Shown in pieces: positions 17,519 through 30,850 of a stretch of 32,123 bases of DNA. The DNA is taken from the NCBI GenBank assembly GCA_002841195.1, contig PHEO01000007.1, positions 1 through 32,123 of the forward strand, in the 5' to 3' direction. Every line of letters starts with the position of its first letter. Position 1 is the stretch's first letter. The position numbers and the translations under genes were made by a program. The DNA is from Alphaproteobacteria bacterium HGW-Alphaproteobacteria-11. Lineage in GTDB: Bacteria > Pseudomonadota > Alphaproteobacteria > Parvibaculales > Parvibaculaceae. A model generated the notes under the pieces. It saw only the letters and a list, made by a program, of their open reading frames with translations. It was not told the origin of the DNA and made no database searches.

Positions 17519-17604
17519 TGGTGCCCCTGGCCGGACTCGAACCAGCACGTTGTTGCCAACAACAGATTTTGAGTCTGCCGCGTCTACCATTCCGCCACAG
17601 GGGC
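17519..17604 (-). tRNA. tRNA-Leu (anticodon CAA), CCA encoded
   Basis: - strand GCCCCTGTGGCGGAATGGTAGACGCGGCAGACTCAAAATCTGTTGTTGGCAACAACGTGCTGGTTCGAGTCCGGCCAGGGGCACCA; acceptor GCCCCTG/CAGGGGC, anticodon loop CTCAAAA, long variable arm, TTCGAGT T-loop. Confidence 0.95.
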
Positions 17605-29391: not shown

Positions 29392-30657
29392 ATGACGGAT
29401 ACGGACAAAAAAGATCTCTACGAGATCGGAGAGATACCGCCGCTCGGCCATGTGCCGGAGAAGATGTATGCCTGGGCGATCCGCCGCGACCGCGAGGGTC
29501 CGCCGCAACAGGCGATGCAGGTGGAGGCGGTGCCCACCTGGGAAATCGACTCAAACGAGGTGCTCGTCCTCGTGATGGCGGCCGGCGTCAACTACAACGG
29601 CATCTGGGCCGGCCTCGGCACACCGGTTTCGGTTTTCGACGTTCACAAGCAGCCCTATCACATCGCCGGCTCGGATGCGTCGGGCATCGTCTATGCGGTC
29701 GGCGCCAAGGTGAAGCGCTGGAAGGTCGGCGACGAAGTCGTCATCCATTGCAACCAGGACGATGGCGACGACGAGGAATGCAATGGCGGCGATCCGATGT
29801 TCTCGCCGACGCAGCGCATCTGGGGTTACGAAACGCCGGACGGTTCCTTCGCGCAATTCTGCCGCGTGCAATCGCAACAGTTGATGCCGCGCCCGAAACA
29901 CCTGACATGGGAAGAAAGCGCCTGCTACACGCTGACGCTGGCAACCGCCTATCGCATGCTGTTCGGACATGCGCCGCATATTCTGGCGCCCGGACAGAAC
30001 GTGCTGGTGTGGGGCGCGAGCGGAGGCCTCGGCTCTTTCGCCGTGCAGCTCTGCGCGACGGCGGGCGCGCACGCCATCGGCGTCATTTCCGACGACAGCA
30101 AACATGATTTCGTGATGTCGATGGGCGCGAAAGGCGTAATCAACCGCAAGCATTTCGATTGCTGGGGCCAATTGCCGAAGGTCAACTCGGCCGAGTTCAA
30201 CGACTTCATGAAGGAAGCGCGCAAATTCGGCAAGGCGATCTGGGACATCACCGGCAAGGGCATCGACCCCGACATCGTGTTCGAGCATCCGGGCGAGGCG
30301 ACGTTCCCCGTTTCCTGCATGGTGACGAAGCGCGGCGGCATGGTTGTGTTCTGCGCCGGCACCAGCGGCTTCAATCTGACATTCGACGCACGCTTCGTAT
30401 GGATGCGGCAGAAGCGCATTCAGGGATCGCATTTCGCGCATCTGAAACAGGCATCGGCCGCCAACCAGCTCGTAATCGAGCGGCGCATCGACCCCTGCAT
30501 GTCGGAAGTCTTTCCGTGGGCGGACATTCCGCTGGCGCATGACAAGATGTGGAAGAACGAGCACCTGCCGGGCAACATGGCGGTGCTTGTGTCGGCCGCG
30601 CGGCCGGGCCTGCGCACCTTCGAGGACACGATCGAGGCGGGCAAAAAGGCGGCCTAA
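29392..30657 (+). CDS. ccr: Crotonyl-CoA carboxylase/reductase
   Basis: ATG 29392, 421 aa; GVNYNGIWAGLGTPVSVFDVH, QRIWGYETPDGSFAQFCRVQSQQLMPRPKHLTWEESACYTLTLATAYRMLFGH, GQNVLVWGASGGLGSFAVQL. Confidence 0.95.
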   Translation: MTDTDKKDLYEIGEIPPLGHVPEKMYAWAIRRDREGPPQQAMQVEAVPTWEIDSNEVLVLVMAAGVNYNGIWAGLGTPVSVFDVHKQPYHIAGSDASGIVYAVGAKVKRWKVGDEVVIHCNQDDGDDEECNGGDPMFSPTQRIWGYETPDGSFAQFCRVQSQQLMPRPKHLTWEESACYTLTLATAYRMLFGHAPHILAPGQNVLVWGASGGLGSFAVQLCATAGAHAIGVISDDSKHDFVMSMGAKGVINRKHFDCWGQLPKVNSAEFNDFMKEARKFGKAIWDITGKGIDPDIVFEHPGEATFPVSCMVTKRGGMVVFCAGTSGFNLTFDARFVWMRQKRIQGSHFAHLKQASAANQLVIERRIDPCMSEVFPWADIPLAHDKMWKNEHLPGNMAVLVSAARPGLRTFEDTIEAGKKAA

Positions 30658-30676: not shown

Positions 30677-30709
30677 CTGTCACCGAACTGTCAAAAAACT
30701 GTCACAAAC
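30677..30709 (+). promoter_or_regulatory. Pho-box-like array: three CTGTCA direct repeats at 11-bp spacing
   Basis: CTGTCAccgaaCTGTCAaaaaaCTGTCAcaaac; units start at 30677, 30688, 30699. Confidence 0.6.
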
Positions 30710-30724: not shown

Positions 30725-30850
30725 TTATCCCCGGCCCGGCACCGGGGATAAGTCGAACTTGTCCCCGGTTTGCGGCGCACAAACGGCGTGACTTATCCCC
30801 GCTTTCGCTTCGCGGCCGCGATAGGGTGACTGCAAAAAAGTAATCCCCGG
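30725..30850. repeat. Cluster of TTATCCCCGG-like repeats, including perfect inverted pair TTATCCCCGG-N7-CCGGGGATAA
   Basis: Copies: 30725-30734 (+), 30742-30751 (-), TTGTCCCCGG 30759-30768 (+), TTATCCCCGC 30793-30802 (+), TAATCCCCGG 30841-30850 (+). Confidence 0.7.

Follow-up and report, generated by a model that had tools for sequence, protein, structure and literature searches.

A dispersed composite element with Pho-box-like arrays keeps its chromosomal positions and changes its spelling across Parvibaculum genomes

The window, by which we mean the whole 32,123-nucleotide stretch of DNA analysed here, contains a convergent gene pair: ccr, encoding a crotonyl-CoA carboxylase/reductase-like protein with ADH_N and ADH_zinc_N domains (29392–30657, + strand), and tauE, encoding a member of the sulfite exporter TauE/SafE family (PF01925; 30863–31657, − strand). 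Starting 19 bp past the ccr stop (30657), and co-directional with this upstream gene, is the array CTGTCACCGAA CTGTCAAAAAA CTGTCACAAAC (30677–30709, +). Its units lie on the + strand at 30677–30687 (CTGTCACCGAA; the unit-1 consensus in the genome of the window, G000, is CTGTCATCGAA), 30688–30698 (CTGTCAAAAAA, the same as the consensus) and 30699–30709 (CTGTCACAAAC; consensus CTGTCACAAA), and the tauE 3′ end (30863) follows ~153 bp beyond. An earlier note on this DNA had described a triplet of exact CTGTCA hexamers at 11-bp intervals, placed where the ccr and tauE 3′ ends face each other, and both the hexamers and, by the gene calls in the window, their convergent location were confirmed. No second array is present in the window, where the two exact matches to CTGTCA-N5-CTGTCA are the overlapping pairs of this one. 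The single match in an Rfam scan of the window is a tRNA gene (17522–17604, −).

Beyond the array, four TTRTCCCC boxes (three forward, one reverse; 30725–30801) form strong inverted repeats. The forward boxes are TTATCCCCG (30725–30733, +), TTGTCCCCG (30759–30767, +) and a further TTATCCCCG (30793–30801, +), and the reverse box, TTATCCCCGG (30742–30751, −), makes an inverted repeat with 30725–30734. Two boxes together make up a near-perfect 13-bp inverted repeat with a 3-nt loop (30741–30769). The fold predicted for the + strand includes this repeat, and the one for the − strand includes part of it. A degenerate TAATCCCCG box by the tauE 3′ end (30841–30849, +) is retained in the relatives L031/L032. 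Relatives located via tauE are Parvibaculum. The earlier note had proposed looking for conservation in the orthologous ccr–tauE region, and an array of the same layout is kept there in L031/L032 (94–95% DNA identity to the window over aligned stretches) and in L033/L034; among the relatives compared at tauE, none was present at L035, where tauE has another neighbour, or at L036.

That note had overlooked three things: the boxes at 30725–30801, the conservation of the ccr–tauE site and a family of ~70 arrays. G000 (3.25 Mb) holds 68 exact three-unit matches and 143 exact matches to CTGTCA-N5-CTGTCA, 71 on the forward and 72 on the reverse strand, and the Parvibaculum relative G017 holds 73 exact three-unit matches, longer arrays giving overlapping matches that are counted more than once. 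The array had been taken for an orphan; it is one of ~70 copies in its genome. In a class-wide sample of 386 genomes, just three have exact three-unit arrays, namely G000, G011 (Parvibaculum) and one genome of another genus, with a single copy; this distribution and the 68 matches in G000 exclude a chance origin of the window array. A looser pattern, YGTCA in three units, was found 16 to 76 times in 15 of 27 Parvibaculum genomes, most with ~50 or more, 0–2 times in the remaining 12, and 0–1 times in 13 genomes from other genera of the family. For this motif, the control used in the pattern searches, each pattern read backwards, is an unfair null, because the reversed pattern matches the repeats too. 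Hits to the array pattern in viral contigs were rejected, being three short, unrelated phage-DNA repeats of the CTGTCACA type.

Most copies are a composite element, with a directional three-unit array followed by TTRTCCCC boxes within ~200 bp. The 200 bp downstream of 74 arrays in G017 contain 95 forward and 39 reverse boxes, compared with 4 over the other 68 kb of intergenic DNA (0.06 per kb) and a single one over the 308 kb of coding sequence (0.003 per kb) at the same loci, and confinement of boxes to array elements is similar in G000 and G013. Boxes accompany 62 of the 74 G017 arrays and are lacking at 12. Box-less arrays are commoner where a co-oriented gene follows, and the pstS and PiT transporter sites are among them. 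The literature searched had no hit to any spelling of the array and no relevant work on repeats in Parvibaculum, and the dispersed composite element is undescribed there. Some arrays (L131, L143 and L146 in G017; L014 in G000) have a two-unit array ~90–115 bp upstream, separated from the main array by a recurrent stretch that is CCAAAGGCTTGCG-like in several. G007, which is without the YGTCA array family, has a dispersed core of its own, CTTGCAAGAGATCGAGTGTTTCCATGCAGAGATCG, with GGGGATAA/ATCCCC boxes of a similar kind nearby; its copies are for the most part in convergent regions and at non-orthologous places (L352, L354, L362, L364, L368, L370, L372, L376), and intergenic DNA of G015 has GGGGATAAGT...ACTTATCCCC pairs without any array (L361, L365).

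Placement was counted with a simple home-made gene-finder script, by which convergent regions hold 27 of 72 arrays in G017, 25 of 57 in G000 and 12 of 26 in G013; these are 38–46% of copies, against a background of 7–14% (8%, 7% and 14%, respectively, of the remaining intergenic regions with a length of 100 bp or more). In G017 and G000, arrays are under-represented in divergent regions. The earlier note had suggested that the array could drive a small or antisense RNA, and we considered the general form of this idea, in which the arrays are PhoB-dependent promoters of such RNAs running into the downstream convergent gene. The sequence does fit a Pho box, and some box-less arrays are upstream of genes, for example pstS and the PiT transporter. 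However, a co-oriented gene lies downstream of just 30 of 72, 19 of 57 and 12 of 26 arrays, a search of 74, 66 and 29 arrays found no TANNNT at any fixed distance downstream, conservation past the third unit is slight, and the window scan placed no Rfam RNA family at the array site. With its convergent copy in the window, its convergent excess and no fixed TANNNT, the element departs from the promoter location and fixed −10 of a Pho box, and we regard small-RNA promoters as a very improbable account of the arrays.

Place and orientation are kept across species. An orthologous neighbour stands beside an array in the partner genome for 57 of 74 arrays in G017 and 58 of 66 in G000, and the side is almost always the same; in G013, 21 of 29 arrays have a match in G017, and all 10 canonical arrays recovered from G016, whose elements were retrieved via the boxes with two weak L313 matches excluded by judgement, share at least one orthologous neighbour. 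The spelling differs. The ~70 copies in a genome have a consensus that extends into the spacers. G000 uses CTGTCATCGAA-CTGTCAAAAAA-CTGTCACAAA (CTGTCA), and G017 uses CCCCCCT-CTGTCACAAAA-CTGTCATAAAA-CTGTCACAAA (CCCCCCT plus CTGTCA); the third unit is CCGTCA in G013, and the G016 dialect is CCGTCATCGAA-ACGTCATCGAA-ACGTCA (CCGTCA/ACGTCA). At variable positions, 57 orthologous G000/G017 pairs have an identity of 0.580; non-orthologous pairs across species have 0.555, and pairs within G017 have 0.805. The first spacer retains zero orthologue memory, at 0.48 in orthologous and 0.48 in non-orthologous cross-species pairs versus 0.75–0.78 within species. The dialect genomes are related, so that tests across them are non-independent, and a PstS protein tree left the order of the dialects unresolved. 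The arrays are respelled in place, in concert within each species. A leftover promoter, another suggestion of the earlier note, is not supported for a site whose position, orientation and neighbours are conserved and whose sequence is held in the species dialect. The array may yet be a decoy site, a further suggestion of that note.

A mobile or REP/MITE-like repeat, spread and homogenised by transposition, was also considered: the element is dispersed and intergenic, the box pairs make inverted repeats, copies within a species are more alike than orthologues, and in G007 similar boxes accompany a dispersed core of another sequence. Yet here the sequence changes while place and orientation hold across species, copies within G000 have no shared flanks outside the motif, and the spacing is over-regular, which makes transposition an improbable origin.

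Several of the genomes analysed are draft MAGs. Over-regular spacing was found in three of the four genomes tested: the coefficient of variation is 0.55 versus 0.92 for random placement in G017, 0.67 versus 0.97 in G013 and 0.51 versus 0.84 in G016, and the value for G041 is non-significant (0.76, p 0.11). The largest gap between neighbours is 133 kb, measured within G017 contigs without reference to Ter. Array strand matches the local gene-strand-corrected GC3 skew at 25 of 30 arrays in G013, and the skew component is about +0.05 in G017, +0.05 in G000 and +0.10 in G013. Within 3 kb, GC3 strand skew tracks array orientation and is higher downstream (L111–L185 in G017; L250–L279 in G013); the step at the array may be partly a gene-end effect beside convergent genes. 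A simple replichore polarity of the KOPS type was rejected: in G013 the local strand skew reverses more often than a simple map of replichores would allow, counts of GGGNAGGG gave no clear pattern in the same check, and strand is shared weakly between neighbouring arrays.

The strand agreement and the species dialects, the latter as in DUS (PMC3630211), would suit a DUS/KOPS-like sequence recognised in DNA uptake, recombination or translocation, with the process that uses it dictating dialects and orientation. Such a sequence would be expected to be short and far more numerous, with thousands of copies for DUS versus ~70 per genome here; the motif is long and composite, and adjacent arrays share strand weakly. 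We think a role of this kind distinctly doubtful.

The PhoB box comprises 11-bp direct repeats of CTGTCA with an A/T-rich spacer (PMC4415409, PMC3465305). The earlier note had likened the array to this form and rightly so, with two or more 11-bp CTGTCA-type direct repeats and an A/T-rich spacer. Judged by sequence, the Pho-box resemblance of the arrays appears genuine, and a PhoB-type protein would be the best candidate reader. Single sites of the same build stand upstream of pstS and of a PiT phosphate transporter in Parvibaculum, and G012, G002 and G021, with at most two YGTCA arrays each, have one array 109 bp upstream of the predicted PiT gene, an assignment made by reading the gene's own sequence. 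The PiT-orthologous position holds an array in G000, G017, G013 and G016 too, spelled in the dialect of its own genome in G000, G017 (C-run included) and G016; the G013 copy (L262) has the CCGTCA third unit of the rest of G013. In Sinorhizobium meliloti, orfA-pit has a PHO box and is repressed under phosphate starvation (PMC3131613). The pstS box stays near CTGTCATSGAACCGTCGTAAA in several of the dialect genomes. One of these is G016, where it departs from the genome's own dialect, which suggests that a protein other than PhoB itself may read the dispersed arrays.

If the reader is PhoB, ~70 three-unit sites could act as a sink that titrates PhoB-P and sets the firing threshold of true Pho promoters. 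Arrays and true Pho boxes look alike within a genome, the avoidance of divergent regions by the arrays suits sites not meant to drive genes, and in E. coli many PhoB sites are transcriptionally inert (PMC10294691). A sink needs no even spacing, conserved place and orientation or TTRTCCCC companion, however, and the inert E. coli sites are intragenic and non-conserved (PMC10294691); we consider titration unlikely.

The copy number of ~70, box confinement, convergent bias, regular spacing, conserved place, concerted evolution and the dialect of the PiT site lead us to a different proposal, held with moderate confidence: that the element is a dispersed set of composite stations, mostly not promoters, to which a PhoB-type protein would bind, with a role most likely in chromosome architecture. 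The anatomy of the element, its numbers and placement, its spacing, the conservation of place and orientation and the concerted dialect change are directly observed in the genomes; we infer from them who the protein may be, that it would occupy the arrays and that its role would be architectural. A tandem-binding winged-helix regulator, most likely PhoB or a close paralogue, would bind the array head-to-tail, and a second factor would bind the TTRTCCCC boxes. Most copies would be fixed stations about every 45–75 kb and not promoters, kept for the most part between convergent genes, where transcription would be spared, and their architectural role might tie nucleoid state to phosphate signalling. 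Counterpoints to the stations are the off-dialect pstS box of G016, the spacing in G041 and the 12 of 74 box-less arrays in G017; in addition, 12 of 27 genomes of the genus manage with at most two YGTCA arrays. More tentatively, this could be a previously undescribed chromosome-organising system in which evenly spaced, directional, composite stations are respelled together at fixed positions as the specificity of their PhoB-type reader drifts, and through which phosphate signalling would be tied to the organisation of the nucleoid.

One expects the operators of response regulators to lie in promoters; here ~70 operator-like arrays per chromosome lie mostly elsewhere. Should PhoB or a paralogue bind them, a classical regulator would have acquired a genome-wide, non-promoter role, and the dialects would be a natural experiment in how a DNA-binding protein and its sites, dozens at a time, evolve together. 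Pho-box scans of Parvibaculum would yield many false regulon members.

Compared with known systems, the element shares with the PhoB Pho box 11-bp direct repeats, a CTGTCA core and an A/T-rich spacer (PMC4415409), whereas the arrays number ~70, lie mostly off promoters, are evenly spaced, come with TTRTCCCC boxes and follow dialects that pstS ignores. Nucleoid-occlusion systems have a comparable number of dispersed, sequence-specific chromosomal sites, about 70 NBS for Noc and 24–52 SBS for SlmA (PMC4726725). Those sites are palindromes and the Parvibaculum arrays are directional direct repeats; Noc and SlmA sites are scarce near Ter, and array gaps in G017 are at most 133 kb within contigs, taken without reference to Ter. 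The DUS of Neisseriaceae are likewise a dispersed motif with species dialects, sometimes in intergenic inverted pairs (PMC3630211), but they are short and present in thousands of copies, whereas the arrays are long composites at ~70 per genome. REP and MITE repeats are intergenic, have palindromic parts and prefer gene 3′ ends. The array elements are similarly intergenic, partly palindromic and biased to gene 3′ ends, but unlike such variably inserted repeats they are over-regularly spaced and fixed in position and orientation, their sequence shifting in place, and 58 of 66 arrays in G000 share neighbours with arrays in G017.
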